DNA from: a virus
Length of the DNA: 31,236 nucleotides
Direction: 5' to 3' (one strand)
Virus record (IMG/VR): IMGVR_UViG_3300032326_000513
Location: 1 to 31,236 of that record
Shown one piece after another: positions 2,707 to 31,166 of the stretch. A model generated the notes under the pieces. It did no database searches, had not been told where the DNA came from, and saw nothing but the letters and a program-made list of their open reading frames with translations. Each line of letters opens with the position of its first letter. Within the stretch, counting starts at the first letter, position 1. Made by a program: the position numbers and the translations under genes.

Positions 2707-3828
2707 TTAAATTACGTTATATGGACTTTGGAATGCCCTGAACTTTAATAATTTGTTTAAGTTCTCTGCTTGTAAAGCCTTTTGTTCCATCATTTTTTCA
2801 GGACGTAATCTTTCTAAACGTGCTTTTAATTCTTCCCATAACATTGTTTTCTCATCTTTAGCCTCAGTAGATAAGGATGTATAGTCCATAGTTAATTCGG
2901 AATCAGGAGTTTTAAGATTACCACTAAACTTACCTCTTACTCTTGCTAAAGTTTCTTTACAGTATGCCGTAAACCATCTTCTAACCCAAATTTGTGCGGG
3001 TGAATTTAATTTATCCCATCTTAATCTTTCTAATGGAATATCAGAAGGTAGTCTAACCACATCGGGATTATTTGCCAAACAATCTTCTCTATCGAATGTA
3101 TCATAATACCAATACCAAACTCGATATTGTTGGAAATTAATATTACCAAAATCGAATTTACCACCGGGTACATTATATAAATGAATTGCCTTTTTACCTT
3201 CAGGTAATGCAGTAACTCTATAGGTAAGTTCGCCGGTTATGATTCTTCTTTTAATATTGATGTCTGACATTCTTAAAAGAATATCAAATGCTGGTGTGAT
3301 GAAATAGTTACCGGTAGTTCCTAATTGTGAAAATCCGGCACCACCACCTAAACCTATACCACCAAATCCACCAAAACCTCCCATGAATGGGTCAAAGTAT
3401 GCCGCATCTAATTCACTTCTTGAAAACCATAAAAGTTCATTAAGTTCTCTACCTGCAGGTATTTCGTAAATTTGTTGACCTGGAACTAAATCTATATAAT
3501 CTTTTTTTAATACCCAATCACCACCAGCTTGTAGACCAACAATTTTAGAGTATGCGTAAGTGTATTGAGTTTCCCAATCCATACTTCTCGTTGATAAGGC
3601 TCTCGTAATGGATTGTTCATCTAAGTTAAGACCATAAACTGAAGTCCACTGAGACTCAATTAACCAATCTTGTACATGTTGTTCATAATCTTCGATAGAT
3701 AATTCTAAAAGAGAATCCAACATTTCGTCTTCAAGTTCCACTGAACGTAAAGGTGCACCCAAAAGATTACGTATTCTTTTGTAAAGTTTACTTCTTTCTG
3801 GTTCGTTGATAATAACTGTAGTTGACAT
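2707..3828 (-). CDS. 13: Neck protein, T4 gp13-like (head-tail connector)
   Basis: 373 residues. The N-terminus has a helical segment in which a short acidic stretch (LEDEMLDSLLELSIEDY, about 32-48) precedes an aromatic region, as in T4-like gp13 neck proteins where such helices dock on the portal. The C-terminal part (about 275-345) has the WVRRWFTAYCKETLARVRGK helix, a short 'SG-NLKTPDSEL' loop and a final charged helix, which parallels the 'KKQWG-N-L-KF-G-LPGG' and acidic helix end of cyanophage gp13. Residues 149-170 form a Gly/Phe loop (GGFGGFGGIGLGGGAG) not expected in gp13. A TATTTATA motif sits 11 bases upstream. It lies on the opposite strand from the other neck and tail genes. Assignment is by remembered family pattern and is moderately sure. 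Confidence 0.65.
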   Translation of the reverse strand: MSTTVIINEPERSKLYKRIRNLLGAPLRSVELEDEMLDSLLELSIEDYEQHVQDWLIESQWTSVYGLNLDEQSITRALSTRSMDWETQYTYAYSKIVGLQAGGDWVLKKDYIDLVPGQQIYEIPAGRELNELLWFSRSELDAAYFDPFMGGFGGFGGIGLGGGAGFSQLGTTGNYFITPAFDILLRMSDINIKRRIITGELTYRVTALPEGKKAIHLYNVPGGKFDFGNINFQQYRVWYWYYDTFDREDCLANNPDVVRLPSDIPLERLRWDKLNSPAQIWVRRWFTAYCKETLARVRGKFSGNLKTPDSELTMDYTSLSTEAKDEKTMLWEELKARLERLRPEKMMEQKALQAENLNKLLKFRAFQSPYNVI

Positions 3829-3839: not shown

Positions 3840-3847
3840 TATAAATA
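3840..3847 (-). promoter_or_regulatory. Putative late promoter motif (TATTTATA) for the neck gene
   Basis: On the minus strand TATTTATA is followed by TAAAAAAATCT and the ATG at 3828, leaving 11 bases between motif and start. The same octamer in the same orientation precedes many other genes in this window. Inferred phage late promoter. Confidence 0.55.
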
Positions 3848-3863: not shown

Positions 3864-4952
3864 CTAAACAGACTTCTTTTTAATTTGTGTTGTATATTGG
3901 TCGTTTACAAATCCCCAATTCACAACTTTCCAAAAGTTTTTAATGTATTCGTCTCGTTTATTTTTATATTTTAAGTAGTACGCATGTTCCCATAAATCCA
4001 AACCAAGTAATGGGTAACCATTTTCTTTTTCGGTATTCATTAAAGGGTTATCTTGATTAGATGTTGTAACAATTTTTAATTTATTATTTTTTGTTAAAAT
4101 CAACCAAGCCCACCCTGAACCAAATTTAGTTTTTGCTTCTTCACTAAACTTCTCTTTAAATTTTTCAAATGAACCAAAATCTTTTTTTATTTTAGAAAGT
4201 ATCGGGTCAGAAACTTCTTGTTTTTTTGGTGACAACATTTTCCAAAATAAAGCGTGGTTAAAAGCCCCACCACCATTATTTTTAACAACATTATTAAATT
4301 TTGAAATCTTTTCTATTATTTCCTCAAGGTCTAAATCCTTACCTTTAATTTTTTCTAATTCAACATTAAGTTTTTCAACATAACCCTTGTAGTGTTTATT
4401 GTAGTGGGTATTCATTGTTTCACCGTCAATAAATTTTTCTAAAGAGTTATAGTCATATGGAAGTTTATCAACACTTACTTTTTTTATTTCGGTAATTAAT
4501 AATTCTTTTTTTGAAGATTCTATTTCTAATAGTGTTTCAATTTTTTCAATTTGCTCTGAAAAAGATTTATAGATAACTTTTTCCATATCCTTATTATTTT
4601 TTTCAAACTTTTTGATTTCTTGGGATGCTTGTGAACTTGCCTCATCCTCGTTTTTTCCACCGATATTTTTTCCTTTTTTTCTTTTCAAAACGGTTCGTTG
4701 GTATTCGTGTGACCACTCGTGAGCCAATGTTCTTAAGACATCGCGATTTAACCTATCTTTTACTAAAATTTTAAGTTTGTTTTTATCAGTTCTCGAACCT
4801 GTAGTCATTTCGCCGGTTCTTTTATTTTGGAATACAATATCCAAATTATCCTCTAACGGGTAATTTTTTTTAAGTTGTGAAATAAAATCATTGATTAAAA
4901 CTTTATCCTCTTTACTTGGCTCAATTCCAATATATTCAACATTTACGTCCAT
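3864..4952 (-). CDS. Fusion: HExxH zinc metallopeptidase plus Mn-type superoxide dismutase
   Basis: One uninterrupted 362-residue frame with two domains. Residues 1 to about 120 are a zinc-peptidase-like domain: LAHEWSHEYQ gives H78-E79-x-x-H82, and NEDEASSQASQE gives E102/E104 as the likely third zinc ligand, as in ImmA/IrrE-like and other gluzincin-type peptidases. A charged linker (about 120-160) follows. Residues 161-356 are a complete Fe/Mn superoxide dismutase, converting superoxide to peroxide and oxygen: ligands H183 (THYNKHY), H233 (AFNHALFW), D319 and H323 (DLWEHAYY), plus second-shell H187, Y191, W281 and W321. Gly at 229 and Gln at 300 (SNQDNPL) match Mn-type rather than Fe-type enzymes. 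No signal peptide. A TATTTATA motif lies 4 bases upstream, suggesting late expression. Domain identities are firm; the purpose of the fusion is unknown. Confidence 0.93.
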   Translation of the reverse strand: MDVNVEYIGIEPSKEDKVLINDFISQLKKNYPLEDNLDIVFQNKRTGEMTTGSRTDKNKLKILVKDRLNRDVLRTLAHEWSHEYQRTVLKRKKGKNIGGKNEDEASSQASQEIKKFEKNNKDMEKVIYKSFSEQIEKIETLLEIESSKKELLITEIKKVSVDKLPYDYNSLEKFIDGETMNTHYNKHYKGYVEKLNVELEKIKGKDLDLEEIIEKISKFNNVVKNNGGGAFNHALFWKMLSPKKQEVSDPILSKIKKDFGSFEKFKEKFSEEAKTKFGSGWAWLILTKNNKLKIVTTSNQDNPLMNTEKENGYPLLGLDLWEHAYYLKYKNKRDEYIKNFWKVVNWGFVNDQYTTQIKKKSV

Positions 4953-4956
4953 GATA

Positions 4957-4964
4957 TATAAATA
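4957..4964 (-). promoter_or_regulatory. Putative late promoter motif (TATTTATA) for the peptidase-SOD gene
   Basis: On the minus strand TATTTATA ends 4 bases before the ATG at 4952, directly after the TGA stop of the helicase gene. If it is a -10 element, the transcript would be nearly leaderless. This gives the fusion gene its own late signal, separate from the helicase upstream. Confidence 0.55.
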
Positions 4965-6728
4965 TCATCGGTTTTTAGAAATCATATTTAACATTTCTTC
5001 AATTATCGATGCCTCGTCAAATGTATCGTCACCCATAACCGTTGATATAATTTTTTTCTTTCTATTTAATATGTCGTAAATCGCACCTTCGATACTATTT
5101 TCAAATAGGGGGTAATATACTGATGTTGAATTTTTTTGACCGATACGATGAGACCTGTCTTCTGCTTGTGAATGTTCTGCAGGTACAAAAGATAAATCAT
5201 TCATTATTACCGCTTCGGCCGAGGTTAAAGTAATACCAACACCTGCAGCCTTTAAGTTTCCAACAAATACTTTGATTTTATCATTTGTTTGAAACTCATC
5301 AACAGCATTTTGTCTGTGGAACTTAGAACAACTACCATCCAAATAAACTGCTGACTTACCAAAGTGGTTATAGATTTGATTTAGTGTGTCGGTAAAGTTT
5401 GTAAATATAATAACCTTTTTACCTTGTTCTACGATGTTTTCAGCTAACTCGATTGTGTTATTAATTTTTTCTTGGGCAATAACTTTCCTTACTTTCATCA
5501 ATTTTGAAAACTGAATTGTAAGTGATGAAGACTCTTCAGGGTTTTGGTCATACCAATTGAAATACTCACCCATTAATTCTTCGTAATCTTTTGATTTGAG
5601 TCTTAAATAAACAGGTGTAATAATTTTTTCAGGTAAATCTAAAACGTCTTCTTTTAATCTTCTTAGAATGTGTGTTGAGGTTCTTTCTCTTAATTCTTCA
5701 AGATTAGATGCCCCTGTAACATTCCATACTTTTCTTTTCCCAACACTAAATTGGAATCCGTTACAATATCTTTTAGCGTAAGCCATCCAATTCATAGCTA
5801 CGGGACTATCAACAAGGTTTAATAAATTATAATAATTCATAGGTCGTGATGTCATAGGCGTTCCTGATAACAACCAAACTCTATTTGATTTACTAGCGAT
5901 GTCGTTGGCAATTTTAGTTCTTTGGGCTTGTGGATTAGAAATCATATGGGCTTCATCCATGATTACCAAATCAAAATTAATCTTCATTATTTCTGATTTT
6001 TCTTTGTCTTTGGTATCGTGGAAATTTTTTAAGATGTCATAATTTACAATAACAAAATCATGTTCATCTGAAAATTTTTTACCTTCTGCAATATATACGG
6101 TCCTATCTGAATAATTTGCTATTTCTCTTTGCCAGTTTATTTTCAAAGATGCAGGACACACGATTAAAACTTTCTTAGCGCCTGTTTCTAAAGCTGCGAT
6201 TATGGTTGAGGTTGTTTTACCAAGACCCATGTCATCTGCCAAGATAAACTTTTTGTTTCTTACAAGTTTTTCGATTGCTTCTTTTTGATGTTCCATAGGT
6301 GGTCTATGGGTGTATTTGTTGTAATCAATTGAAATGTTTTTAACTTCATTATCTTTTATTAATGCCGATTTTGGCATCCAAAAATCATGTAAAGTTTCAC
6401 CTGAAAAGATTTTACCCCAAATATGATAAGCTTTATCTTTTTCCACTAACAACTTCTCAACATAAATTTCTGAAGGTTCCTTGGTGTACATCTTATCTTC
6501 CATCAGTTTTTTACCAAAATATGTATCTAATTTGACCCATTTTTTTGCAACTTTTGGTTGTATTATGTGATAATTATTGATGTAATCGGCTTGAGGTCTT
6601 GTAGGTACAAAAGACTTACTATTTTGTTTTTTGTGTTTTAAATTAAGGATATAATTATTTGACCCTTCATAATCGTCTAAAATTAAAAGGGCTTTTGATT
6701 CGGGTGTTTTTGGCACAAAATCTTCCAT
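4965..6728 (-). CDS. SNF2-family (SF2) DNA helicase/translocase
   Basis: 587 residues from the ATG at 6728. A longer frame exists to 6896, but its extra 56 residues overlap the divergent gene at 6784 and look like non-coding translation, so I reject it. ATPase motifs: Q-like region HRPPMEHQKEAI (141-152); Walker A DDMGLGKTTS (165-174, K171); DEAH box (258-261); SGTPM motif III (288-292); motif V AGVGITLT (495-502); motif VI QAEDRSHRIGQ (521-531) with its arginine fingers. The order and spacing are those of SNF2/SMARCAL1-like translocases, which remodel forks or displace proteins on DNA. In T4-like phages a related SF2 role (UvsW: fork regression, R-loop removal) is known; equivalence here is inference. 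The N-terminal 140 residues contain no domain I can name. It heads the minus-strand block. Confidence 0.94.
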   Translation of the reverse strand: MEDFVPKTPESKALLILDDYEGSNNYILNLKHKKQNSKSFVPTRPQADYINNYHIIQPKVAKKWVKLDTYFGKKLMEDKMYTKEPSEIYVEKLLVEKDKAYHIWGKIFSGETLHDFWMPKSALIKDNEVKNISIDYNKYTHRPPMEHQKEAIEKLVRNKKFILADDMGLGKTTSTIIAALETGAKKVLIVCPASLKINWQREIANYSDRTVYIAEGKKFSDEHDFVIVNYDILKNFHDTKDKEKSEIMKINFDLVIMDEAHMISNPQAQRTKIANDIASKSNRVWLLSGTPMTSRPMNYYNLLNLVDSPVAMNWMAYAKRYCNGFQFSVGKRKVWNVTGASNLEELRERTSTHILRRLKEDVLDLPEKIITPVYLRLKSKDYEELMGEYFNWYDQNPEESSSLTIQFSKLMKVRKVIAQEKINNTIELAENIVEQGKKVIIFTNFTDTLNQIYNHFGKSAVYLDGSCSKFHRQNAVDEFQTNDKIKVFVGNLKAAGVGITLTSAEAVIMNDLSFVPAEHSQAEDRSHRIGQKNSTSVYYPLFENSIEGAIYDILNRKKKIISTVMGDDTFDEASIIEEMLNMISKNR

Positions 6729-6772: not shown

Positions 6773-6780
6773 TATTTATA
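6773..6780 (+). promoter_or_regulatory. Putative late promoter motif (TATTTATA) opening the plus-strand tail block
   Basis: TATTTATA ends 3 bases before the ATG at 6784. It sits in the 55-base divergent gap between the helicase and the neck gene and points into the plus-strand tail genes. Confidence 0.55.
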
Positions 6781-8586: not shown

Positions 8587-8594
8587 TATTTATA
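8587..8594 (+). promoter_or_regulatory. Putative late promoter motif (TATTTATA) for the tail sheath
   Basis: TATTTATA followed by TATAAAAAATAA, 33 bases before the sheath ATG. The leader between is almost pure A/T with no Shine-Dalgarno-like sequence. Confidence 0.6.
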
Positions 8595-11899: not shown

Positions 11900-12037
11900 A
11901 TGAAAATAGAAAAAAAATTAATCAAAGAATCTTTAGGTTATAAAACTGAAGGTAAAAAAACGTTTTCAGAAAAAAAACAAAATATTGTAATTACTGAAGC
12001 ACAATTAGAAAGACTTTTAGAAAAACTTAAAAAATAA
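11900..12037 (+). CDS. 45-aa basic protein with [IL]xE-type N-terminus
   Basis: A short ORF beginning MKIEKKLIKESLGYKTEG and ending ITEAQLERLLEKLKK. The stop TAA shares its last A with the ATG of the next gene (TAATG), the usual arrangement for coupled translation, which supports it being real. It is Lys/Glu-rich with an amphipathic C-terminal helix. The first ten residues end in IKE before Ser, which resembles the capsid-targeting propeptides that the T4 prohead protease cuts after [IL]xE. No enzyme motif; function unknown. Confidence 0.55.
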   Translation: MKIEKKLIKESLGYKTEGKKTFSEKKQNIVITEAQLERLLEKLKK

Positions 12038-12906
12038 TGAATATCAATAAGTACGTAAGAGAATTTGTAAAAAACAAACTTAACGAAGGTTTTACGGAAG
12101 AAGGTAATCCTGATACAAAGTATTATGCTTTTGATTGGGATGATAATATAATGTTTATGCCTACGTCAATTATTGTTTTAAGTGAAAACGACGAAGAAGT
12201 TCCGATGTCTACAGAAGACTTTGCAGAACACAGACACCAAATCGGTAAAGAACCATTTAGTTATAAAGGTACTACTGTTGTGGATTTTGCACCAGACCCA
12301 TTTAGAAATTTTGGAGTTAAAGGTGATAAGAGATTCGTATTAGATGCTATGGTGGCATCTGTTGGTCCATCTTGGAATGATTTTGTTGAGTGTATCAATG
12401 GTGGGTCTATATTTGCAATCATCACAGCAAGAGGACACAACCCAAATACATTAAAAGAAGGTGTTTATAATTTAATAATGTCTAATAAGAATGGTCTTAA
12501 TAGTAGAACACTAGCAGAAAACCTTTATAGATATAGAAATATCGGTAATGAAGTGACCGGTGAAAAAAAGGCAAAAGCTTTGACACCAAAGGAATTACGT
12601 GAGTATTTGGACCTTTGTAGATTTTATCCCGTGTCTTTCGGTGAGGGGTCTGCGACTAATCCTGAAGAAGGGAAAATCAAAGCAATGAGAGAGTTTATTT
12701 CTTATTGTAAAGATATGGCTCAAGAAATAGGTGAAAAAGCATTCTTCAAAAATGATGTAGAAAACAATGAAATACTTCCTATTATTGGTTTTTCTGATGA
12801 TGACCCTAGAAATATAGATAAGATGAAAGAATTTTTAGATGATGAAGATACTGAAAAACTAGTAAAAACTTATTTAACTAAAGGAGGAGAAAAAAAGGAA
12901 ATCTAG
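12037..12906 (+). CDS. HAD-superfamily phosphatase-like protein in the tail operon
   Basis: 289 residues. HAD motif I is YYAFDWDDN (nucleophile D33, acid/base D35); motif II is FAIITARGH (T130); a candidate motif III lysine is K213 or K215 in EGKIKAMREF; motif IV is GFSDDDPRNID (D254-D256, Mg2+ binding). All four elements of the aspartyl-phosphate phosphatase core are therefore present, with a long cap-like insert between motifs I and II. Substrate cannot be read from the sequence; phage relatives of this fold include polynucleotide 3'-phosphatases and nucleotidases. The first 17 residues (MNINKYVREFVKNKLNE) form a basic amphipathic helix ending in LNE before Gly, like a capsid-targeting propeptide. 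The gene overlaps the 45-aa ORF by one base and lies between sheath and tube. Confidence 0.85.
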   Translation: MNINKYVREFVKNKLNEGFTEEGNPDTKYYAFDWDDNIMFMPTSIIVLSENDEEVPMSTEDFAEHRHQIGKEPFSYKGTTVVDFAPDPFRNFGVKGDKRFVLDAMVASVGPSWNDFVECINGGSIFAIITARGHNPNTLKEGVYNLIMSNKNGLNSRTLAENLYRYRNIGNEVTGEKKAKALTPKELREYLDLCRFYPVSFGEGSATNPEEGKIKAMREFISYCKDMAQEIGEKAFFKNDVENNEILPIIGFSDDDPRNIDKMKEFLDDEDTEKLVKTYLTKGGEKKEI

Positions 12907-12973: not shown

Positions 12974-12981
12974 TATTTATA
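12974..12981 (+). promoter_or_regulatory. Putative late promoter motif (TATTTATA) for the tail tube
   Basis: TATTTATA followed by ATAAAATAAAAG, 32 bases before the tube ATG. The rest of the 107-base gap after the phosphatase gene holds no other ORF. Confidence 0.6.
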
Positions 12982-14493: not shown

Positions 14494-14501
14494 TATTTAT
14501 A
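14494..14501 (+). promoter_or_regulatory. Putative late promoter motif (TATTTATA) for the tape measure
   Basis: TATTTATA followed by CTATAAAAGACT and the ATG at 14514, leaving 12 bases. The AAAAGACT stretch before the ATG recurs almost unchanged before the gene at 16358. Confidence 0.6.
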
Positions 14502-16357: not shown

Positions 16358-19300
16358 ATGGAGAGTCCACTATCATTTAATTCGAGCGAAAATTTTAGAA
16401 AAAAACTATTGGTGAGAAACCTTCCACCATACAAAGTAGATAGTGCTTTTTCGAATGACGGTAAACCAGGTTCTTCTGAATTTAATATTAATGACCTAAC
16501 TCCCATCGATTCACCAAGTGTTGAACAAATAGGTAACCAACAAGAACAAATTCTTTTACCTATAAATCAGTACGGACCACAAACAAGTACTGGAGAATAT
16601 GGAGACATTGTTCCAATTAATATTAATTTAAATTATAAATCAAATGAAGGTGAATATGGATATCCTGACACAATAGAAAGTGATTTAGAAATTATTGGTA
16701 ATAATACTGAAAAACAAATTATAATAAAAAATGTTTATAGACCTGAAAATGGTTTATCAGACTTCGGTTCAACGGCTTGGTACATTAATAATGATAAAGT
16801 TATTAATACTGTTGGTGAAGGTGAATATACGGTACAAGATACGATTGGTAGTAATTTAGAAACTACCGCAAATGCTGACCGACCTATTCTTATTACAAAT
16901 AATCAATACGGACCAGAGAACCCTTCTAATGTTGAAGTTTCGATTAATAATAATTTACAAACTAATGCGAACGAAGGTGAGTACGGATTTCCTGATACGG
17001 TAGATAGTCCATTAGAAATAAAAGGAGAAACGGATAGACCTGCATTAATAGCCATAAATCAATATGGTCCTGAAAATTTACCAACAACCGAAGTATCAAT
17101 CAATAATAACTTACAAACCAACTCAAATGAAGGTGAGTATGGGTTTCCTGACACTGTAGATAGTGAACTACAAATTGTAGGTGAAGATGTTAGAAAACCT
17201 AATTTCTTACAAAATCAATGGGGACCTGAACAAGGACAAAGTGAAACTGAGGTTGAACCTTATAGAAAATTAAAAAGTTTAACAATACCACAAGGTAATT
17301 ATGATGTTACTGATGCTGATGGTTCTGTTTTAGAACTTGTTGGTGGAATTAAAGAAACTGAGGCATACCTATCAAACAGATATGCTACTGGTGATGGTGA
17401 ATATGACCCGACAGATTTCAAAACCCTTCAACAAGAGGCGTTACAGTTACCATATGCTAATTCAGATAATACATTTATATTTTTACCATCTACCTACACA
17501 CCATATAGTATATTATTAAATGATGACCCATCGGGTTCTGATGGTAGTTTATCACAAGACTCTGACTTAGCAAATATTGGTGCAAAACAATTAAATAAGG
17601 AATTCAAACATAGAGTTGCTTTAGAATTGTTCCAACAAACTTTGGGACAAGTAAATATATTCAATTCTAATGTTAATCCTGATACTGGAGAAATATCTGC
17701 TCAACCAAATACTGACCCTTTTGATGTTATTGGTTTATTAACAGGTAATATTCCTATTGTATCGAGAGTTTATAATATTACAACTCCTGATTTTCTATTT
17801 GGTCAAGGTATTAACTTTGCGGCTAAATTAGGTGGTCTTTATTCACCCTATTCTTATATTCCTGGTGAGTATTTTGATTATCCTGAACGAATAGGTAATG
17901 GACCTTTTGAAAACCCATTATCATTAATAGGTGGTGCATTGGGTTCCTTATTTAGTGCTCTACAACCCGCAAATCAATCTTCATCTGAATTATTTGTTGA
18001 ATTTACATCAGTACCAACACGTAAATTACTTTACGACCAATTAAAATACAATCAGTACAGACCTGATTATAAAATAGGTAATAATTTACTTGCACCTAAA
18101 GGTGTGTTCTATCTTGGTGATAGAAAAAATCATTTGACAGAATTAATGTCACCTGCGCCTGAACTACCATATGCAAAAGATGGTAAAACCTCTGCGATGG
18201 GACCAGTTCTTTCTTACTCTAATATGGGTAAGTTATATGAAGGAGAACAATTAAATGAAACACAATTTGGTTTAAATAGTAGAAACTTATACAGTGCAGG
18301 TGCCAATAAAGATGGTGTTAAATGGATTGGCGCTGGTATCTTCGGTGGTGTAACTTGGATTGGTAGTAAGAGTCCAAAAGAGGATAACAAACCACTACAA
18401 GGTAAATTACAAGGTAGAGGCGGAGAACAATTCGAAGATAATAGTGAATTCACTTTTGGTAACTTAGTAGGATTCGATTCAACTAAATCCACAAATTTAG
18501 ATTTTACACCAGGTTCTTTATTGGATGTAACACAAAAACTTGTAGACGCAGGTCAACGAAGTTCACAACCTTTAGAACATGTTGGAACCGCTATTAACCA
18601 AGTATCAAAGGTATTCAATGACGGATATCAAGAATTAACAAAAGGTTCAAGAGTTATAAGATATACAACCCAAAACTCTAAACCTGATAGTAGTGCTACA
18701 CCGACAGGTCTTGAATATTGTAGAGTATTCACAAAAGACAGACCATATTATACTTATGATGAGCTACAAAAAACAGATGGTAATATAAGAGGTTATACTA
18801 ATTCAGTATTAGACAACACGTACAATTTGAATATTGCACCAATTGATGGGTATAGTATAAAAGATGGTAAAGTAAAAAAATACATGCTATCTCTCGAAAA
18901 CTTGGCGTGGAGAACATCAAATAAGAAGGGTTATACTTATGATGATTTACCTGCATGTGAAAAGGGACCAAATGGTGGTAGAATTATGTGGTTTCCACCA
19001 TATGATTTAAGTTTTGATGAAAGTGTTAGTACACAATGGACTGACAACAATTTTTTAGGTAGAACTGAACCGATTTATACTTACACTAACACATCAAGAA
19101 AGGGTAACGTTTCTTTTAAAATTATTGTTGACCACCCATCAATTCTTAATGTTTTAGTCGATAAAGAATTAGAAAATGTTGGAAACAACGGAGAAATAAC
19201 ACAAATTATTGATTCATTTTTTGCGGGATGTACTAAGTACGATTTATGGGACTTAGTTAGTAAATTCCCAATGTTTACACCCAATGACATTTTCGAAACT

Positions 19301-22300
19301 CAAATATTAACAACTGAAGATATTGTCACAGTAGTAGAAGAAAATAGTTATTCTATTCCTGAACAAGAAATTGATATTGATACTGAAATTGAACCTACAC
19401 CTACACCATCACCATGTGTTGTGTTAAAATACCAAATTGGAGTTACTACTGATTTAACATATACAGGTTGTTCAGGAGATGTAATTACACTAACAGGTTT
19501 AGCTCCAAACGCGAGCGGAGAAATATGTGCAATAAGAAGTGATGCTTATAATTATTCAACACCTGACCCTACAAATACTATAACACCAACAGGACAAAAT
19601 TGTGTTCAAACAACACCTGGACCAACTCCAGGACCAACACCTACACCAACACCTACGGCAACCGAACCACCATTAAACATTCAATTTCCGGATATTGGTT
19701 TTTATTTTGATAACAACTTTCCTGATGGAACTGGAAATAGATTCGGTACCACAGTTACTCAAGATTTTGAACATTGGTACGATTTATATATTGGTTCAAA
19801 AAACAATTATTTAAATGATGGAAAACCTGATAAATATAGCGCAGCTTTAAATAAAATATTTTCATACGGAGATAGTACTAAAGCAGATAAAACTAGTTTC
19901 ATTTTAGGACTTGATGAAGGTAATGTAACTAAAATAGAATATCTAAGGAATTATGTTGATACAAGAAAAGAGGAAATAGGTAATTTTTTCGATTATATAA
20001 CTAAGGAATTCAACGAAGCTAAAAGCTTCATACCAAAACTAGGTAAAATATTAGATGATGGGGGGACCGTTGAATTTGATTTAGAGGCGAGTGCATCAGC
20101 TGTAACCGACCCCGAATATAATCTAAATTTATCTAAAAGAAGAAATGATGCGGTTTTGAAGTGGATATTAAAACAAAAGTCACCAAACCAAACAACTTTA
20201 CAAAATTATAACCAACAAGGTAAATTGAAAATTAATCAGACATCTGTCGGAGAAAGTCCAACACTGATAGACCCACCATATAAATTTGTTGAATGTTCTA
20301 AAGGTTTTGAATCATCGAAAAAAGAAGGTGTTGTGTCAATAAACGCAATGGCTTGTCGTAGAACTAAAATTAGTAATATCAAACCTATAATAAATCAATC
20401 ACAAAATGAAAACCAAACACAAAATTCGACAGTTCCATTAACTAATGGTGGTGACTCGTCACAAACCGGTCAAGAATTATCAGGTCAAGATTTCTTAGTG
20501 ATAGCACCAAATCCACAACCTGGAACTGATGGAGGTGTAGCGCAACCAAATGACACAACTAACCCTTTTGTTGCTCAAGACCCAATTTCACAACCTTATA
20601 CAAATACACCAAATACGAGACAACAAGACGTACAAACACAAACACTACAAAAAAGAAAAGATTTAACAAAAAGATTAGCAAGAAAACTTTTAACTGAATG
20701 TAATTATTTTGAATATATCAAACAAAATGAACCGATGGTTTATGATGGTATTAAATCAAAAATAAAATACTTCCAACCTGCATTCCATTCAATAACACCA
20801 GAAGGACTCAATGCAAGATTAGTGTTCTTACAACAATGTATGAGGCCCGGTGATACGATACCTACAGTATCTCTGTCAGATAGTGGTCAACAAACATTAT
20901 TATTTAATGATGCAACGAACAGTGCTTTTGGTGCACCTCCAGTTTGTATTTTAAGAATAGGTGATTTTTTCCATACAAAAATTGTTATTGACCAAATAAC
21001 TTTTAAATATGATGATGGTAGATTTGATTTAAATCCTGAAGGTATTGGAGTTCAACCAATGATTGCAACTGTGAATGTATCATTCAATTTTATAGGTGCT
21101 CATGGTTTGGCAGGTCCTGTTGCTCAATTACAAAATGCATTATCATTTAACTATTATGCTAATACTGAAATGTATGACGAAAGAGCCGAATCAACAGAAC
21201 AACTTAATTTAGAAGTTTATGATGCTCAAATACTTTCACAAGTAAAAGATGACTTAAATGTTGTCAATACGGAAGCACCAAGACCGGTAGTTAATGATGG
21301 AGGGGTTACAATTGGAACGATAATAACTAATACAATTGATTTAAACACATCCATTACTTCAGGTACTATCAAGTATAAAGATGTAATGAGTGGGTTGGCG
21401 AATTTAACAAAAGAATATACCGAAAAAACACTTTCTACTTTAGAAAAAATAAATGAAAATTATTTGATTGGTGGACTACAGGTGTTCACAAAAGACAGAA
21501 AATATATTGAAGGAAACTTTAATTATTTAAGTGGAAATATAACAAATACTGCAAACATATTTGGGTACTCTTATGACGTTCAAACTAAAATTGAAAGTAT
21601 TGCAACTAAAGCGAAGGAAGATGTTGATAATGGAGATGTGTGTCCACTTCTTTCAGGATTGGCAAATCAAAATTTATCAAATGCTCAAGTAAGAAAAGTT
21701 AAAAAAGAATTAAAAAATCAAATAGACGCTAAAAAAGAACAAATGTTGAATGATTTAGAAAATTATGCAAATGAAATTAATAATATACAATACCCATTAA
21801 TAAGTTCAATTGACAAAATAAATTATGTTTCAGATGCTCATGATGGGTTTATAAAGAAAAATAATTCAGTAGTTATTTATAATCTTTCAGGAACAACACA
21901 GATAACACAACCAACCCTATCTGGTGTGAACAATACATTACAAGAACTTGTTCAAGATTCTTATTTGGTTAAAAATAACATAAATGATTTTTATCAAAAG
22001 TTACAAGATTTCAGTTTAATACCAACAGGTGAGGATGTATACAGAGACGATTTTACTCAAAATACTTATATATCCAATCAAAACTTTTTACCACAAGAAA
22101 CTGTATTCTTTATTTTATTTGGTAAAGACATAATAGATGATTCTGATAAGTTTGCAATAGATTTGATAGATAAAGCAATACCAAATTTAAATCAAGATGA
22201 TGAAATTGCTTGGTTAAAATTCTTAGATGAAAATCTAAATCAACCAAATACAGGACTTAGAGATTCATACAAAGCTTCTAAAACTGTTGTCGATAAAAAA

Positions 22301-22495
22301 ATTGCAGATTTCAGAACAACGTATTTTAATTCTACATTTACAAATTATAAACCTTATAATTTAGATAAAGAAAGAATAATGTGGTATGAATCCCAAGTAA
22401 CAGCACAAGCACCTTATACAGATAATTTATCTGCAATTTACTCGTCAACAAATGCGACGTGGGACAAATTTAATTTACAAAAAAGTTTTCAATAA
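16358..22495 (+). CDS. Giant multidomain baseplate / tail structural protein (2045 aa)
   Basis: Not a recognised single family; a mosaic. Residues 70-340 are tandem ~54-residue repeats (NQYGPE..., NEGEYGFPDT). Residues 340-1000 contain a structural core with GRIMWFPPYDLSFDES and RKGNVSFKIIVDHPS (about 875-925), as in tube-cap and baseplate proteins that bind the tube. Residues 1013-1105 are a four-Cys module between Pro/Thr linkers. Residues 1106-1337 are OmpA-like (FPDIGFYFDNN; YNLNLSKRRNDAV at about 1250). From about 1470 a second conserved tail core follows (FHSITPEGLNARLVFLQQC; then LNPEGIGVQPM and LQNALSFNYYANTEMYDERA), then a charged helical C-terminus. Position after the tape measure fits a gp48/gp54-like tube initiator or wedge part. 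Its stop overlaps the next ATG (TAATG). Confidence 0.75.
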   Translation: MESPLSFNSSENFRKKLLVRNLPPYKVDSAFSNDGKPGSSEFNINDLTPIDSPSVEQIGNQQEQILLPINQYGPQTSTGEYGDIVPININLNYKSNEGEYGYPDTIESDLEIIGNNTEKQIIIKNVYRPENGLSDFGSTAWYINNDKVINTVGEGEYTVQDTIGSNLETTANADRPILITNNQYGPENPSNVEVSINNNLQTNANEGEYGFPDTVDSPLEIKGETDRPALIAINQYGPENLPTTEVSINNNLQTNSNEGEYGFPDTVDSELQIVGEDVRKPNFLQNQWGPEQGQSETEVEPYRKLKSLTIPQGNYDVTDADGSVLELVGGIKETEAYLSNRYATGDGEYDPTDFKTLQQEALQLPYANSDNTFIFLPSTYTPYSILLNDDPSGSDGSLSQDSDLANIGAKQLNKEFKHRVALELFQQTLGQVNIFNSNVNPDTGEISAQPNTDPFDVIGLLTGNIPIVSRVYNITTPDFLFGQGINFAAKLGGLYSPYSYIPGEYFDYPERIGNGPFENPLSLIGGALGSLFSALQPANQSSSELFVEFTSVPTRKLLYDQLKYNQYRPDYKIGNNLLAPKGVFYLGDRKNHLTELMSPAPELPYAKDGKTSAMGPVLSYSNMGKLYEGEQLNETQFGLNSRNLYSAGANKDGVKWIGAGIFGGVTWIGSKSPKEDNKPLQGKLQGRGGEQFEDNSEFTFGNLVGFDSTKSTNLDFTPGSLLDVTQKLVDAGQRSSQPLEHVGTAINQVSKVFNDGYQELTKGSRVIRYTTQNSKPDSSATPTGLEYCRVFTKDRPYYTYDELQKTDGNIRGYTNSVLDNTYNLNIAPIDGYSIKDGKVKKYMLSLENLAWRTSNKKGYTYDDLPACEKGPNGGRIMWFPPYDLSFDESVSTQWTDNNFLGRTEPIYTYTNTSRKGNVSFKIIVDHPSILNVLVDKELENVGNNGEITQIIDSFFAGCTKYDLWDLVSKFPMFTPNDIFETQILTTEDIVTVVEENSYSIPEQEIDIDTEIEPTPTPSPCVVLKYQIGVTTDLTYTGCSGDVITLTGLAPNASGEICAIRSDAYNYSTPDPTNTITPTGQNCVQTTPGPTPGPTPTPTPTATEPPLNIQFPDIGFYFDNNFPDGTGNRFGTTVTQDFEHWYDLYIGSKNNYLNDGKPDKYSAALNKIFSYGDSTKADKTSFILGLDEGNVTKIEYLRNYVDTRKEEIGNFFDYITKEFNEAKSFIPKLGKILDDGGTVEFDLEASASAVTDPEYNLNLSKRRNDAVLKWILKQKSPNQTTLQNYNQQGKLKINQTSVGESPTLIDPPYKFVECSKGFESSKKEGVVSINAMACRRTKISNIKPIINQSQNENQTQNSTVPLTNGGDSSQTGQELSGQDFLVIAPNPQPGTDGGVAQPNDTTNPFVAQDPISQPYTNTPNTRQQDVQTQTLQKRKDLTKRLARKLLTECNYFEYIKQNEPMVYDGIKSKIKYFQPAFHSITPEGLNARLVFLQQCMRPGDTIPTVSLSDSGQQTLLFNDATNSAFGAPPVCILRIGDFFHTKIVIDQITFKYDDGRFDLNPEGIGVQPMIATVNVSFNFIGAHGLAGPVAQLQNALSFNYYANTEMYDERAESTEQLNLEVYDAQILSQVKDDLNVVNTEAPRPVVNDGGVTIGTIITNTIDLNTSITSGTIKYKDVMSGLANLTKEYTEKTLSTLEKINENYLIGGLQVFTKDRKYIEGNFNYLSGNITNTANIFGYSYDVQTKIESIATKAKEDVDNGDVCPLLSGLANQNLSNAQVRKVKKELKNQIDAKKEQMLNDLENYANEINNIQYPLISSIDKINYVSDAHDGFIKKNNSVVIYNLSGTTQITQPTLSGVNNTLQELVQDSYLVKNNINDFYQKLQDFSLIPTGEDVYRDDFTQNTYISNQNFLPQETVFFILFGKDIIDDSDKFAIDLIDKAIPNLNQDDEIAWLKFLDENLNQPNTGLRDSYKASKTVVDKKIADFRTTYFNSTFTNYKPYNLDKERIMWYESQVTAQAPYTDNLSAIYSSTNATWDKFNLQKSFQ
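16565..17374 (+). repeat. Five tandem ~54-residue repeats (with the start of a sixth) inside the baseplate gene
   Basis: Units begin at about 16565, 16730, 16901, 17057 and 17213, with a degenerate sixth at 17375. Each has N-x-Y/W-GPE, a variable stretch, NEGEYGFPDT-like and a strand ending in a charged turn. Units three and four are closest in protein, but many third codon positions differ, so the duplication is old. This is a protein-level repeat. Confidence 0.8.
19394..19672 (+). other. Cys-containing Ig-like module between Pro/Thr linkers (in the 2045-aa gene)
   Basis: PTPTPSPC opens the module and a TPGPTPGPTPTPTPTATEPP-type linker closes it. Between are YTGCSGD, GEICAIRSD and GQNC, giving four Cys in about 65 residues. 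This pattern of a small disulfide-capable or decoration-like domain with Pro/Thr linkers is familiar from Bacteroidota surface and phage tail proteins; function is inferred. Confidence 0.55.
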
Positions 22496-22812
22496 TGGAT
22501 TACTACAATAGATATAAAGATTTTTTGATTAACGGACAACAAACTGTTGTTCCGTTTTTATCTATACCTGGTAGAGTTACAGACCAGCAATATTTGTATA
22601 GACAAGGAAGAAGTAGATTAGATAAAATAAGTTTTGAAAAATATGGAACACCATATTTTGGTTGGTTGATATTGGCTGCAAATTCCTTATATGGTGGACT
22701 TGAACAAAACATACCCGATGGTACAATATTAATTATTCCTTTTCCATTAACTGCGGCATTACAAGATTATAAAGCCGCTTTAGATACTCACATATTCTAT
22801 TATGGCCGTTAG
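22495..22812 (+). CDS. 53: Baseplate wedge protein, T4 gp53-like
   Basis: 105 residues, translationally coupled to the gene before (TAATG) and overlapping the next by 11 bases. It has a LysM-like strand-helix-strand: a strand (VTDQQYLYRQGRSRLDKISFEKYG) that resembles the 'REGDRPDTISYDFYG' part of gp53, then TPYFGWLILAANSLYGG, corresponding to 'YDWTILLVNNI', and a final IPDGTILIIPFP strand as in LysM repeats. gp53 locks wedges to the hub in the T4 baseplate. Short length is normal for compact versions; T4 gp53 is 196 aa. Confidence 0.75.
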   Translation: MDYYNRYKDFLINGQQTVVPFLSIPGRVTDQQYLYRQGRSRLDKISFEKYGTPYFGWLILAANSLYGGLEQNIPDGTILIIPFPLTAALQDYKAALDTHIFYYGR

Positions 22813-25800
22813 ATTAAAACAAAATAAAAAAATCTTTATTGAGACCGATTATGATAACATTGTTGTTGTTAACCCCAACGAAGTTTTTTCTCCCGACGGT
22901 ACAAAACAAGAACGCCTTGTTGACCATGAAGATTTAGTTTATTATGCCAATTTAGAAACATTTATAATCCCAAGAACTAAGTTAGCTATTGGTGATAATT
23001 TTGACTCACCAGTTATTAATACAACAAGTATTGCAACAATGTTTGCGGGTGACGACGCGTTGAAAATTAATTTCATGAAACCAAAAGGTAAGACACAATT
23101 TGATACAAGTTGGTCAGACCAATTGACGGGAGAAGGTACAAGAACTTTCAACGGAGCTAATCAATCAAGTGAAAGAGTTGTGAACTTTGAAGGTAGACAA
23201 TCTTTTAAACGTTCCGTTTCCAACCCTGAAGATACACAATTATTAGGTATAAAAGAAATAAGAGTTAATATAAAGGGAACGGGTGTCCCTGAAGTAAATA
23301 TACAATTAGTCGACATACAAGGAAGGTCTTTATTTGAACAAGGGGAAAATTCATTATATTCTGCATTTTTTAATTTTCCTTATCCGTTGTTTTATTTGAC
23401 ATTAAAAGGTTATTATGGTAAAGCTGTCAAATATAGATTATCATTAATGTCGTTCAATGCAAGTTTTGACGCAGACACAGGTAATTATAATATTTCACTC
23501 AAACTAATTGGTAAATTCACTGCGCTTCTTTTTGATACGCCTTTATCTTACGCGGTAAACGCACCAAAAATGTACAATACCCAAATTACAGTAACACAAG
23601 AGAGTGATGGTAAAAGGAATACAAAGAATGTCTTTAACACTTATAAGGGTAGACAAAAACTTGAAGAGGTTTATAAAACCTATATGAGAAAAGGATTATT
23701 ACCCGATAACTTCCCGATGCTATCAATAGAGGATTTTGTTTATAGAGTTGAAAACTTTGAAGCAACATTAAAAAAAAATTTAGAAACACAAGCAGATTTT
23801 ACTAAATTAAATGATTTGAAGTTGTTTGCAGACACTTTAATTAATTTAAGAAAAAAAGTTTATGATTATTCTATTAATAATTTTCTTGATAGAACAAGTT
23901 TTTATGTTGTCGGTGAAGAAATATATTATCCCTTCAAAAAAGAAGTTTCGTTACAATCAAGAGAAGATTACAAAACATTTATAGACAAAAATATAATTGA
24001 TTACACAAAACAATTAAAAGACAATGCAACTTTTGGTGAAAAGGGTGAAACAAAAGACCAAATTAGTATATTAACTAAAAATAAAAAAGACATAATTAAA
24101 AAATTAGATTTTAACGCTTGGCAAAACAATAGAGCGGATGTCTTAAATACATACTTATCAAGATATAGTAGAAATTTAGAAGCAGAAAATCCTGATGAAT
24201 ATAAAAATTTTATTCAAAAAGAAGCTGAAAATGCTCAACTTACAACACAAGTAAGAGATGAAAAAGGTCAAATTATAAATGACACACCCGATTATTTTGT
24301 TTTTGGGAACAAAATTGTTGCTGACGGCATATACGTGAAAAATTCTTATTTAGATAAGATTGACGAAATGCAAAAAAGTTTAGAGTCAAAACAAAAAGTT
24401 ATTGAGGACACGTTAACAAAATATTATTCAAATTTACAATTAAAAAACCCAAGTGAAGGTGGGTTAGGATTCAAACCAACAATAAGAAACATTTTCGCAA
24501 TAATAATTGCAGGTGCAGATGCCTTTTATAGGTTGATGGAAGATAACCATGAAGAAGCATGGAATGTAAGAACTGATAAGGACAGGTTATTGGCGGTAAT
24601 ACCAGCAGAAAAAAACTTTTCAGTTGATGCTGTGAAAAGTATACAAAAGTCAAGTACGGAATTAAATGATGATAATGTTGTATATCCTTGGCCTTTATAT
24701 TTTACATTAGAAAAACAAGAAAATGGTAGTGATTTATATACAATACAATATCCAGGTGACGCAAAATACATAAGACAAACAAAGGCTTATGATTACAGAG
24801 TTTGGCCTGAAGTTGGTTTTGTTGAGGCATACATAAAGGCTTCATTAGAAAAAGAAAAACCAACTTCTAATTACACATATGACAACATAACAGACGTAAC
24901 TAAATATGTTTCTTGTAACGCTTTAGAGTTCCCATTCAAAACAGCACCATATCAAGATTTGAATGCTATTAAAACATTTTATGAAATATTTGAAAGAAGT
25001 TATATTAGTTCTCACTATGGAAACTTACCACTCGATTTATCACAAAAAAAACAGATAGATAAATTTTATGGTGATATTGAAAGTTCTAATATAGGTTTAG
25101 TCGCCCCCGAGGATATTACAATCAATCAAAATTTGAAGAATTTAAAATTCAATTCATTAAACAAATTGATTGATTATATGAAAACAATATCAAATAATGG
25201 TAAAGGACAAAGTTGGCAAACGTACATACGAGATATATTCAACACAGAATATATTAAAAACTTACTACAAAACGTTAATGAAATTTATTCAATTGACACA
25301 TTATCAGATAGGTCTGTGAAAGTTTCTGCTGAATTGCCGTTGGCTACCAATATTAAAGAATTTTTAGAGGATAGTGGGACATCCAAAAAAAATACGTTAG
25401 ATACGTATCCATTTACTGATTTAACATGGTTACAAGAAAACATGGCTAACGGAAGTAATATTGGTGCGTTTGAAGATTATAATAATACTACAAGAAGTTA
25501 CATTTATTTAGATGATAAAAAAACTATCGCCAGAATTAATGAAACTGAAAAATACCCTAATTTAAAATTATTCACAAATAACACGGTATTTCAAAGTAAT
25601 ACACAAGCATATTTAACACAAGTAGGGTCAACTGAAAGAATTAATTCAAGACTATCTCTTAAAAACTTTTTTGAAACAAGACAAGATAAAGATTTATATT
25701 TAACTGAATCATATATTAACTATGGAACAAGTTATAGTGGAAATATCGGAACTTTTATTCAAACAACATCATTATTAAACACACCATATTTTGTTAATGC

Positions 25801-28800
25801 TCTCATCGATGGAGTAACAAAACAAAAAAATAATCAAGAAAACTCATTTGTAGGTTTAGGTTATTTGTATTTGAACTCATTACCACTGATAACAACCAAA
25901 GAAAAAATAAAAGACATAACAGATAATGTATTAACAGATTTAGATTATTTAGCAGCAACATTTAATAAATTTTCAGCAATACATCAAGTACCTTATGCTT
26001 GGGTATTAAAGTACGGTTCAATATGGCATAGATATAAAAAATACATAGAAGATAATGTAGATATATTAGACGATTGTTGGAAAAATTTTGATTTTAATGT
26101 TGCTTATGCACCAACAACAGGTGATAGTACAACCACATACACAATATTAGACTATAGTGGTAATCCTCAAAATATCACACTACAAGGGGCTCAATTTTAC
26201 CAAAATCCACAAAACTCGTTCATATTAAGAAATACGTTCGATGTTGGGTTTTACCCCAAAGTTGTAAATTCATTAGAATATTATTTGAATGAAGAAGATT
26301 TATTAACGGGTTATACAACAACTGATTTTGCGGATGTATATAATAAAGGTTTAAAAATTGGTTTCAATAGTGAGTCCACCACAATGTATGGTACAGGATT
26401 TGACCCAAATAATGGATTCAGAGAGTTCTCAAAGAAAAACTATTTTACATATAGATTAATTGAAAACACGGCGGTTCAGTCGCAACCAGACACTATAAGA
26501 CTATACCCTTCAATGGGAGGTATACCGTTCGACCAATCAATTTTTGAATGTTTCAATCAAACGAATAAAATTACCGAAGAAATATATAACAACTTCTCAG
26601 TTTTCAACGGAACTGTTAGGTCATTATGGGGTATTTCTAATTTTGGATATTATAACAACGATTTAATTAAAAAACCATTACCGACCGAATATCTTAAAGT
26701 TATTAAAAATAATGCACCACTTCAAAATGATTTTAATATTGTTAGTAATGATTTAACTTACTCAAAAATAGACGAAATATTCAATTTGTTTGATGTTGAT
26801 TTATTGGATAAAATGGAAGAAAAGTTTTTAACTTTCTGTAATTTTAAACCATTAGCGAGTGAATTAAAATTGAATGAGGAAAATATTACACCTAATTATA
26901 TAGACACTAACGGTTTAACAAATTCAGACGTTAAATTATTACGATATCAGATTAAAAACATTTTTGATTTTGATAGTAGTTTATTTAATAGTGTGAATCA
27001 AAACGAAGATGGAATAGAATTAGGAAAATTACAAATTTCAAATTTATATACATCATTAAATAAATTTTTAAATTTTGATTGCGTATTAAAAATTGCAAAC
27101 CCAACAAACTTTGATAGAAAATTATTTGATTCATTTAGTACTATTTCAAACTTACAAGTACAAGACAAGTATAAATTTGAACCTTATGTGAAAGGTACGT
27201 TACCCGGTGACGGAACAGCAACTACTTTATTACAAAGTATAACTCAAAACCCTTCTGCTTGGGATGCGTTCAGAAAATATTTAGGATATACCACAATACC
27301 TGGGTTAGAGTTTCAAACACAAGTACAACCGGTGTTACCATCCGTACCTATCGCACAAAATAATCCACCTACACCATATACACCACCCGTTGCGGGGCAA
27401 AATTATAGAACGTTCCAAGATTTATGTAGTGGTACGTATTTTAATATAATTGACCCAAATGATAACACAAGCACAACATCATTTAATTACTATAATAATG
27501 ACGTATGGTTCTTAGAGGTTGTTGATAACACATCACAAACAAAAAAATTCTGTGCAAGAAAGGTACCTGATAGTGCGACAACAACCACATATAATTTGGA
27601 GAATGATGACAATTACCCACAGACAAATGCTGTAGGAACAACACCGGCAAGTTACTGTATGTCATTTTATCAAACACAATTAAATTGCCAACAATCACCT
27701 TTATTAGACCCTATACAATTACAGTTTATTGGGGTTTCGTCAACAATATTACCTGACGTACCCGGTGATGGTGATTATATTAACATTGAAAAAACAGACG
27801 GTACATACCAGGTGTTTAGAATTATAGGTGACCCTAATTTTGATGCTAATAAGATTGAAAATATAAGATTTTATCCACCGGGGACTGACCCAATAAACCC
27901 ACCAATCGGTACTAGTATATATCGTGAAGGGTTTGGGGGTATTGACACAAACTACGCGAGAGTATATAGAGTTGATAATAATGTAGGTGGTAATTATGTT
28001 ATGACGGTAGAATACACCCCTAATTCCCCAAATGAAATCATATTATCTGCGAATGTTTCAACCCTACCTGGTTTACAAAACACAATACCACAACAAACAA
28101 CAGTACCCCAACAGGCACAACCATTACAAAATACACAAAAATCTTTCTTAACTGATTTCTTCATTGATAATTCAATCGCATTTAATGAACAAAATATTAT
28201 TACTTTATATCCATTAGTGAGACTTTATGGTGAACAAAAAAGACTTGACCCTACATATGACAAAACTAAATTCACGACATATATAAATAATTTTTTAGAG
28301 AATAGAAGAAGTTTACAGGATAAAATGGTTACAGAAACTTTTGCCAATCTGAATAAAAATTTGAATAATATTGATGTAACGGTTGATTTACCTACTACTG
28401 CACTTAACGGTGACACTACAAAATTAGCTTTATATAATACATTAAAAGGATTTAACGATAAATGGATTGCTGGGTCTGATTTAAAAAACAACACTTTGTT
28501 TGAGGACTTTTTGTTTATGGATAGGGCAAATAGTGATTTGGGTAATTCTTTTGTGTTAGATGTTAAAAAGGTAGTTAATGCTTTGAATATCCAATCAAAG
28601 CAAGACCAAAGTTTAATGAGTGTAATAAGTACAATTTTAGAAGATAATTATTTTATTTTCATGGCGATGCCGGCTTACATTAATTTTTACGGGATACAAA
28701 AGGCTGTAAAAAATGGTCAACCATTAAAAGATGTTGAAATAGGTAATTCATTATTCGGAACATACTTAGAGGTTGACTATACAGACTCAAGTCCAAAATT

Positions 28801-30107: not shown

Positions 30108-30115
30108 TATTTATA
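30108..30115 (+). promoter_or_regulatory. Putative late promoter motif (TATTTATA) after the hub gene
   Basis: TATTTATA followed by TAATAAAAATGTT and the ATG at 30129, leaving 13 bases. It drives the two small genes to 31034. Confidence 0.6.
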
Positions 30116-30128: not shown

Positions 30129-30353
30129 ATGAGTATGAAAGCATTATTAGATGATTATTTAAAAAAAGATACAAGAGTTACCCAAAGAGATGCTGGTAAT
30201 GGTTATCAAGAAGTTTGTGACTTAGATACTGGTGATTGTTATACAATCAGAATGAAAGATGGTCTAATCGAAAGAGTGGATAATACTATGAGAACAAACA
30301 GAACATTAAAGGTTGAAACTCCACAAGGTGTTAAAACATTATTAAACGGATAA
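30129..30353 (+). CDS. Small protein of unknown function (74 aa)
   Basis: 74 residues starting MSMKALLDDYLKKDTRV. An upstream ATG at 30124 opens only two codons before a stop. The protein is a short helix followed by a beta-rich part (GYQEVCDLDTGDCYTIRMKDG) with two Cys seven residues apart, CDLDTGDC, then TLKVETPQG near the end. The paired Cys could bind metal or form a disulfide, but nothing proves this. No family recognised. It ends directly at the next ATG (TAA then ATG), so the two genes are co-translated. Confidence 0.65.
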   Translation: MSMKALLDDYLKKDTRVTQRDAGNGYQEVCDLDTGDCYTIRMKDGLIERVDNTMRTNRTLKVETPQGVKTLLNG

Positions 30354-31034
30354 ATGTATAGTAAAATGAACGTAGAAAAAAAAATATTGGAAGAATTAAA
30401 AAGATTCAACCAAATTAATTCATATATCTTAAAAGAGCAACCTGAAGCACCTACAGAACCTGAAGGTGGTGTGCCACCGGCACCAGAAGCGCCTGTTGAA
30501 GGTGATGTACCACCGGCACCTGATGCTGCAGCACCAGCTCCTGAAGCACCGGCAGCAGATGCTGAAGCTGCTCCAACTGAAGTTCCTGAACCGGTAGATG
30601 TGGAAAACGACCCGGATGTAGAAGAGGTTGATGCTGAAAAACCTGAGGATGAGGAAACTGAAGAAATTGATATCACTGACCTTGTAACATCACAACAAGA
30701 AATTCAGGCAAAACAAGATGAGTTTATGAATGATATGTTTTCAAAAATTGATGATTTGGCATCAAAATTAGAAAACATGGACCAAATTATGAGTAAGATA
30801 AATGACTTGGAAACTAAATTTGATAAGTATAGAGAAAAAACACCTGAAGAGAAACTAATGTTACGTTCTTTAGATTCTTATCCTTACAATCAAAAACTGA
30901 CAGATTTCTTTCAAGATAAAGAAGAAGAGATGGAGAAAACAGGAAAAAATGAATATGTATTAACATCAGATGAGGTTGAGAACTTTTCTCCAAACGAGGT
31001 AAAAAAAACATTTAATATTTACGACAACGAATAA
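30354..31034 (+). CDS. Acidic Pro/Ala-rich coiled-coil protein with [IL]xE-type N-terminus
   Basis: 226 residues from 30354; an ATG at 30366 (MNVEKKILEELK) is an equally good start. Layout: an amphipathic helix ending ILKE-Q at residue 28; a Pro/Ala/Glu low-complexity region (29-80); an acidic run (80-105); a coiled coil (about 107-163, SQQEIQAKQDEFMNDMFSKI then DDLASKLENMDQIMSKINDL); and a conserved-looking tail (PEEKLMLRSLDSYP, then YVLTSDEVENFSPNEVKK). The net charge is strongly negative. The ILKE site resembles a T4-type prohead-protease cleavage site, and acidic low-complexity plus coiled coil is common among head-core or internal proteins, but this is inference. No enzyme motif. Confidence 0.7.
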   Translation: MYSKMNVEKKILEELKRFNQINSYILKEQPEAPTEPEGGVPPAPEAPVEGDVPPAPDAAAPAPEAPAADAEAAPTEVPEPVDVENDPDVEEVDAEKPEDEETEEIDITDLVTSQQEIQAKQDEFMNDMFSKIDDLASKLENMDQIMSKINDLETKFDKYREKTPEEKLMLRSLDSYPYNQKLTDFFQDKEEEMEKTGKNEYVLTSDEVENFSPNEVKKTFNIYDNE

Positions 31035-31059
31035 TAAAAATAATTGAATTTCGTACTAG

Positions 31060-31067: not shown

Positions 31068-31076
31068 CTATAAATT

Positions 31077-31099: not shown

Positions 31100-31100
31100 A

Positions 31101-31131: not shown

Positions 31132-31166
31132 TTGTAGATAAAAGAGTAATAATTAAAAATTTATTT

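Follow-up and report, generated by a model that had tools for sequence, protein, structure and literature searches.

The gene at positions 3864 to 4952 on the minus strand (ATG at 4952, stop codon 3864-3866) of a 31,236-base virus record, a fragment analyzed over its whole length and called the window below, encodes a 362-amino-acid protein in which a zincin-like domain (MP) is fused to a full Fe/Mn superoxide dismutase (SOD). Judged by alignment with relatives that have no MP, the linker between the two parts is the N-terminal tag of the SOD itself, and it ends in a motif of the prohead-protease type. The reading to which we give slightly more credence than doubt is that the protein is a SOD precursor made late and packaged into the head, where a gp21-type prohead protease would trim it and from which it might leave with the DNA; the packaging, cleavage, ejection, SOD activity, and role of MP in it are what we infer. 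The original prediction, which claimed a single continuous frame without stating the strand, was right on this point: the 362 codons run without interruption on the minus strand. It had also raised the case of an assembly error, with homologs encoded as two genes separated by a stop or gap. Instead, both parts share one frame in 123 distinct ORFs, of which 110 are whole. A first IMG/VR scan gave at least 589 relatives, the best 80 of which were kept; all 80 are fusions that match residues 20 to 351 or more. Because both parts share one frame in these best 80 relatives, we ruled out an assembly artifact, and the data support a genuine fusion in which a zincin-like domain is joined to a full Mn-type SOD.

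The SOD domain (residues 156 to 362; 3867-4487, minus strand) was recognized by Pfam, by fold search, and by alignment. Both Pfam halves score above their curated cut-offs, Sod_Fe_N at residues 161 to 241 (E 2.4e-22, 79.6 bits versus a cut-off of 27) and Sod_Fe_C at residues 250 to 351 (E 3.2e-42, 143.2 bits versus 20.9), and the fold search returned the Sphingobacterium MnSOD 6gsc (45% identity) as the closest PDB entry. The metal ligands H183, H233, D319, and H323, together with G229 and Q300, are invariant in 30/30 aligned relatives, and so are the gateway residues H187 and Y191 and also E322. The complete domain with all four ligands and the Mn-type Gly229/Gln300 pair, both of which had been predicted, are thereby borne out. 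This Gly/Gln pair is also found in cambialistic SOD enzymes. The window SOD carries Mn-type residues, and its activity and any preference for Mn are putative. The sampled phage SODs are under purifying selection, with dN/dS values of 0.04 to 0.13 in 11 pairs, which are rough because dS exceeds 1 in all of them.

For MP (residues 1 to 128; 4569-4952, minus strand), an HExxH...E signature had been predicted with either E102 or E104 as its glutamate. The signature itself stands: H78, E79, and H82 of the HExxH motif (residues 78 to 82; 4707-4721, minus strand) and E102 (4647-4649, minus strand) are invariant in two alignments, in 30/30 and 54/54 relatives. E104 is conserved only in at least 90% of the 54, and since it is not invariant there, E102 is the likelier third metal ligand. 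Nineteen residues separate H82 from E102, and thermolysin has the same HExxH-to-Glu spacing. The structure model has a mean pLDDT of 93.6, and its best structural matches are zincin-like: 1oz9 (Z 9.6), M1 aminopeptidases (about 9), and Wss1 (8.6). The lack of a peptidase fold that the original prediction named as evidence against itself is thus not seen in the model. Such a fold is nevertheless no proof of a peptidase, because the top match, 1oz9, is a YbeY-family protein, that family is not known as one of peptidases, and the members of that family among the fold matches include a metallo-endoribonuclease. Foldseek alone gave nothing at E < 0.001 for the model, no Pfam, PHROG, or NCBIfam family reached its curated cut-off (the best, DUF6055, had E 8e-4, below its cut-off), and a sequence profile search of the PDB gave a single match, at E 0.21 and no zincin. 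The domain searches, which had been proposed for each part, identified both SOD halves and matched MP to no family at its cut-off. From the invariant residues and the predicted fold, MP is probably a minimal zincin-like domain and a putative metallopeptidase. It also exists in other phages as a gene of its own of about 129 amino acids, where it carries no tag like that of SOD. MP may be another enzyme carried as cargo, or it may contribute to targeting as part of that region.

We surveyed the forms in 411 loci, 410 from six overlapping viral scans plus the window, counting distinct ORFs. Besides the fusions (110 whole, 13 cut), they yielded MP-only ORFs (20 whole, 4 cut) and SOD-only ORFs (34 whole, 1 cut); these proportions are no census, because the queries were these very proteins and retention was limited to the best 80. 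One whole SOD-only ORF (L412) is bacterial in type and was left out of the tag count below. The suggested survey for MP with and without SOD thus found both, and SOD without MP as well. In two contigs, MP and SOD are separate genes lying 162 kb (G016) and 134 kb (G017) apart. The constant part is SOD; MP is optional, and the fusion is not the basic unit.

In a tree of 58 phage and 8 bacterial SODs, the phage SODs form one clade in which presence of MP changes three times or more, and the L471 SOD, which has no MP, lies inside a fused clade, suggesting a recent loss of MP. The tree thus indicates repeated joining or loss of MP, with individual placements unsure because of long branches (L442 and L393). 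A second tree, with 32 phage SODs and 80 cellular ones, again gave a single phage clade (support 100/99), and these single clades indicate that the sampled phage SODs share one origin. Among the 80 cellular loci kept, the best SOD has 52% identity, and 70 of the loci are from Bacteroidota; MP was not found in the ORFs of these 80 loci. In a collection of annotated phages, 15 records match SOD, none of them over 80% of the fusion, and nothing matches the MP domain or the neck protein. The best matches to the capsid protein in phage records include an uncultured phage, Microcystis phage Mel-JY01, Flavobacterium phage immuto, and Rhodothermus phage RM378. The phage group with this SOD is widespread and T4-like, probably with Bacteroidota hosts, for which freshwater Flavobacteriia may be a first candidate. 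One record considered as a phage SOD, MW462191, was set aside, as its neighbors look bacterial.

The junction between MP and SOD is strongly constrained. Residue -9 from the SOD core is Glu in 79/79 distinct fusion junctions, with I, L, or V at P3; 1 of 108 ORFs (L243), which has no LPY anchor, was dropped from this set. SOD-alone proteins start with a tag of 25 to 40 residues closed by the same kind of motif, with Glu at -9 in 22 of 23 distinct tags (P3 is V, L, or I in 21 and M in 1) and at -8 in the remaining one. The variable linker of the window protein (residues 129 to 155; 4488-4568, minus strand) matches these tags and is read as the propeptide of the SOD. It closes with LITE (residues 152 to 155; 4488-4499, minus strand), a putative prohead-protease site at which the cut would fall between E155 and the following I; several relatives have LINE followed by I at this place. 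The residue after the Glu is M in 41 and I in 38 of the 79 fusion junctions, and A in 12 of the 23 SOD-alone tags. Lys at -7 (K157) is invariant too (79/79), and as the conserved stretch thus runs past E155, a structural reason for it is possible. Residues 131 to 161 are modeled as a helix with pLDDT < 50.

The capsid protein of the related phages has a similar site. Their gp23 carries LINE followed by A in 18/18 cases, in the same alignment column as FLTE followed by A of T4, and this is presumed from the alignment to be the head-protease site of these phages. A gp21-type protease (PF03420) was found in 7/12 and 14/16 related contigs (two sets, with G006 in both) and a T4-type gp23 in 7/12 and 11/11 (two sets); the 31-kb window, being a fragment, showed neither of them. 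The portal profile PF07230 had no match in the window and none in the control, and is therefore uninformative. In T4, gp23 is reported to be shortened by 65 residues (PMC9026906), Alt is cleaved at ITE-6 and LTE-619 (PMC5694885), and internal proteins enter the prohead via short propeptides; a 10-residue capsid-targeting sequence (CTS) is enough for packaging, and foreign enzymes fused to a CTS were packed and delivered to the host (PMC9026906). By its residues, LITE followed by I in the fusion fits the T4 gp21-type cleavage rule.

The same kind of motif recurs where further modules follow. A C-terminal module of more than 100 residues is present in 53 of the 110 whole fusions, and the 48 distinct tails seen in the first 254 loci sort into groups of 26, 17, and 5 members. 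Six tails scanned against Pfam gave none above cut-off (weak matches include BapA_N, E 0.0032), three scanned against PHROG gave none at E 0.01, and PADLOC found nothing in the fusion and three tails. In 35-residue windows, the pattern [LIVF][LIV]xE occurs at 76/76 MP-SOD junctions and 21/35 SOD-tail junctions, the other 14 being without the strict motif, versus 22/227 windows inside MP, 1/315 inside SOD, and 19/277 inside tails. One tail module, ALKWL, also occurs as small standalone proteins with the tag MKIIITE followed by S (L184 to L188). Two standalone copies adjoin the fusion in G003; a further L188 copy is tagged differently, and the copy at 143749-144045 of G003 has none as called. 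Distant relatives of another tail (27 to 32% identity, three ORFs of two kinds) have N-terminal tags with such a motif or a looser one. A wider, modular arrangement is conceivable, although we lean somewhat against it: short tags ending in such sites would precede enzyme modules, single or in polyproteins (MP-SOD-X), and within the prohead one protease would release a cocktail of enzymes, SOD included, that enters the host along with the DNA.

For the SOD itself, the favored course of events would be as follows. The precursor would be expressed late, alongside the virion proteins, and its propeptide (residues 129 to 155) would associate with the prohead core, much as capsid-targeting sequences do in T4. 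A gp21-type protease encoded by the phage itself would cut after E155 and free a SOD of canonical length (residues 156 to 362) inside the head. Ejected with the DNA, this SOD might lower superoxide early in infection, or it might guard the packaged genome. MP, a phage zincin-like domain also known on its own, is placed in frame before SOD in this lineage. The virion-borne antioxidant put forward in the original prediction is strengthened by the prohead-protease-type motif and stays a putative role. The main weakness lies in the position of the propeptide: T4 CTS cargo carries it at the N-terminus, whereas the motif of the window protein is internal (residue 155), although near the N-terminus in SOD-alone relatives, and a folded MP of 128 residues must be tolerated in the prohead.

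The chief rival, unlikely in our view but to be taken seriously, is an uncut two-domain SOD that works late in the cytoplasm of the infected cell, with a linker that merely joins its parts. Active-site conservation and purifying selection would suit any SOD, and Vibrio phage 2.275.O encodes a SOD without MP among genes for IF-3, RpsU, and gyrase. Such an enzyme agrees less well with a tag that is retained in SOD proteins without MP, whose end resembles the cleavage site of the capsid protein and whose kind of motif stands before many third modules. We consider it improbable that MP cuts the linker and frees SOD, or is a protease controlled by redox state or metal. The invariant HExxH and E102 and the zincin-like model agree with this, but the persistence of the conserved cleavage-like site where MP is absent weakens the original idea that the peptidase frees its SOD partner. 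MP was not found in four of five SOD-alone contigs (G023, G025, G026, and G027, possibly fragments), the fifth (G024) having a different ORF with a more remote MP-like match and a sixth pick (G022) being a fusion, and the two genes lie far apart in G016 and G017.

Late expression, a part of the packaged-SOD reading, is suggested by the upstream sequence. The T4 late consensus is TATAAATA, and its reverse complement, the box TATTTATA, lies on the coding strand at 4957-4964 (minus strand), 4 bases 5' of the fusion ATG, where a late-type motif had been predicted. TATTTAT precedes the ATG in most relatives, by 1 to 7 bases in 66 of the 73 distinct stretches that lie upstream of MP and fusion genes. 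The count of boxes in the window alone is not above chance (10 versus 6.45, with 11/100 shuffles as high). In six contigs plus the window, TATTTAT lies within 40 bases upstream of 294 of 1,069 genes, compared with 95 for its reverse complement and 46.1 in block shuffles (largest 66). It precedes the sheath, neck, and prohead-protease genes in G001, but the box is no universal mark of head genes, since gp23 has none in its 40 upstream bases in 6/6 contigs. Seven of the ten window matches to TATTTATA lie in coding orientation upstream of called genes (4957-4964, 3840-3847, 6773-6780, 8587-8594, 12974-12981, 14494-14501, and 30108-30115). The distance from box end to ATG in all contigs peaks at 4 to 5 and at 12 to 18 bases, which may reflect two classes of start.

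Boxed genes also show more of the cleavage-like motif near the N-terminus. In counts that are descriptive and no blind test, because the patterns were picked after examples had been seen, the motif [LIVF][LIV]xE occurs in residues 2 to 41 of boxed proteins 128 times (mostly in the first 20 residues) versus 51.8 (SD 6.8) in shuffled sequences, with a smaller excess near the N-termini of unboxed genes (173 versus 112.5, SD 11.0); a looser tag pattern matches 16/294 boxed N-termini versus 5.6 shuffled (largest 13) and 19/771 unboxed ones versus 13.6 (largest 21). The strict tag pattern of 11 to 12 residues is not enriched at protein N-termini (2/1,069 versus 1.1 shuffled).

Gene order was read in six fusion loci (the window, G001, G002, G003, G004, and G009) and nine SOD-only loci, ten having been taken and L412 being unlike. 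In all 15, the SOD gene sits between a helicase gene and a neck gene. The neck gene, in the window a head-tail adaptor-like gene with its own box (2707-3828, minus strand; phrog_211, E 1.1e-10), is directly downstream in 14/15, with two small genes intervening in G003. The helicase gene, of SNF2 type (4965-6728, minus strand), directly adjoins upstream in 12/15, with small genes intervening in G002, G004, and L442. The predicted structural-gene neighborhood is thus supported. The adjoining neck gene and the late-type box could point to a virion protein whose MP acts on an envelope protein at entry and whose SOD sits at the neck, a reading that we find slightly more doubtful still than cutting by MP: Pfam and PHROG searches of the fusion gave no domain of tail or neck type, SOD-alone forms hold the same locus without MP, and gene order alone cannot place a protein in the particle. 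Least probable of all is that E-[MIA]-K serves this SOD subfamily as a structural N-cap, or that M is an internal start, without any proteolysis, as the invariant K, the M in 41/79 junctions, and the low-confidence linker helix might suggest, since I takes that place in 38/79 and A in 12/23 SOD-alone tags, and a like motif precedes unrelated tails.

The helicase gene beside SOD in L454 (1231-3876, plus strand) is enlarged, with a start that looks intein-like by eye (LGKCEPKNNKVFTPNG), and the helicase ORF of L471 is long too (964 amino acids). In locus L310, a gene at 77973-78935 of G003 (plus strand), GIY-YIG homing endonuclease-like by eye, adjoins the helicase gene.

Compared with the Fe/Mn SODs of Bacteroidota (PF00081/PF02777), the phage SOD is alike in its full domain, four ligands, and Gly/Gln pair, and the window protein differs by its propeptide and N-terminal zincin-like domain. 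Its likeness to T4 internal head proteins and Alt rests on the tag motif, a propeptide-like tag ending in [LIV]xE, and on related contigs that encode a gp21-type protease and a gp23 whose site is similar; the cargo here would be SOD, and packaging is what the tag suggests. Viral SODs are already known, and the MP-SOD fusion was found in no record of the annotated phage collection. Vibrio phage 2.275.O likewise has an Fe/Mn SOD in a large phage, with 29% identity and no MP match. PMC7019647 describes the Cu/Zn SOD A245R of chlorovirus PBCV-1 as expressed late and packaged in the virion, with less superoxide in PBCV-1-infected cells than with virus lacking A245R; it belongs to another SOD family and an algal virus, and the passages on it mention no fusion (PMC7019647). 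Neither an MP-SOD fusion nor a SOD with a prohead propeptide was found in the literature searched by title and abstract opening among the entries listed, and that literature gave no account of head cargo of this kind in these uncultured T4-like phages. If the packaged-SOD reading is true, a tailed phage delivers a ready-made antioxidant enzyme, a bacterial counterpart of the virion-packaged chlorovirus SOD, and the role of superoxide at phage entry becomes directly testable. The tag motif would then allow head cargo proteins to be recognized from sequence in this large group of uncultured T4-like phages.

Other proteins of the window and of related contigs were noted in passing. The tail gene region of the window encodes two very large proteins of 2,045 and 2,432 amino acids (16358-22495 and 22802-30100, plus strand), which have no PHROG match at E 0.01. 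The protein at 30354-31034 (plus strand) begins with MYSKMNVEKKILEELKRFNQINSYILKE followed by Q and a Pro/Ala/Glu-rich stretch; it looks prohead-type-tagged and has homologs by eye in G001 and G009. The protein at 12037-12906 (plus strand) starts with MNINKYVREFVKNKLNE followed by GF and then a DWDD motif, and by eye resembles HAD proteins; G004 encodes a similar one (30319-31149), with the similar tag IITEIFQE at its start. Adjoining the standalone MP gene in L227 and L254 is a divergent gene (5122-5958 and 5181-5948, respectively, minus strand) for a tagged protein, muramidase-like by eye, that starts with ILISETEKKRIKELYTLDE or LLITEEEKNNIKSLYNINE. A polyprotein-like ORF in L252 (10882-12147, minus strand) carries the near-identical tags NLQEKIRRILKG, GLEESIRRILREE, and NLQESIRRILREE, one at its N-terminus and two internally between modules.
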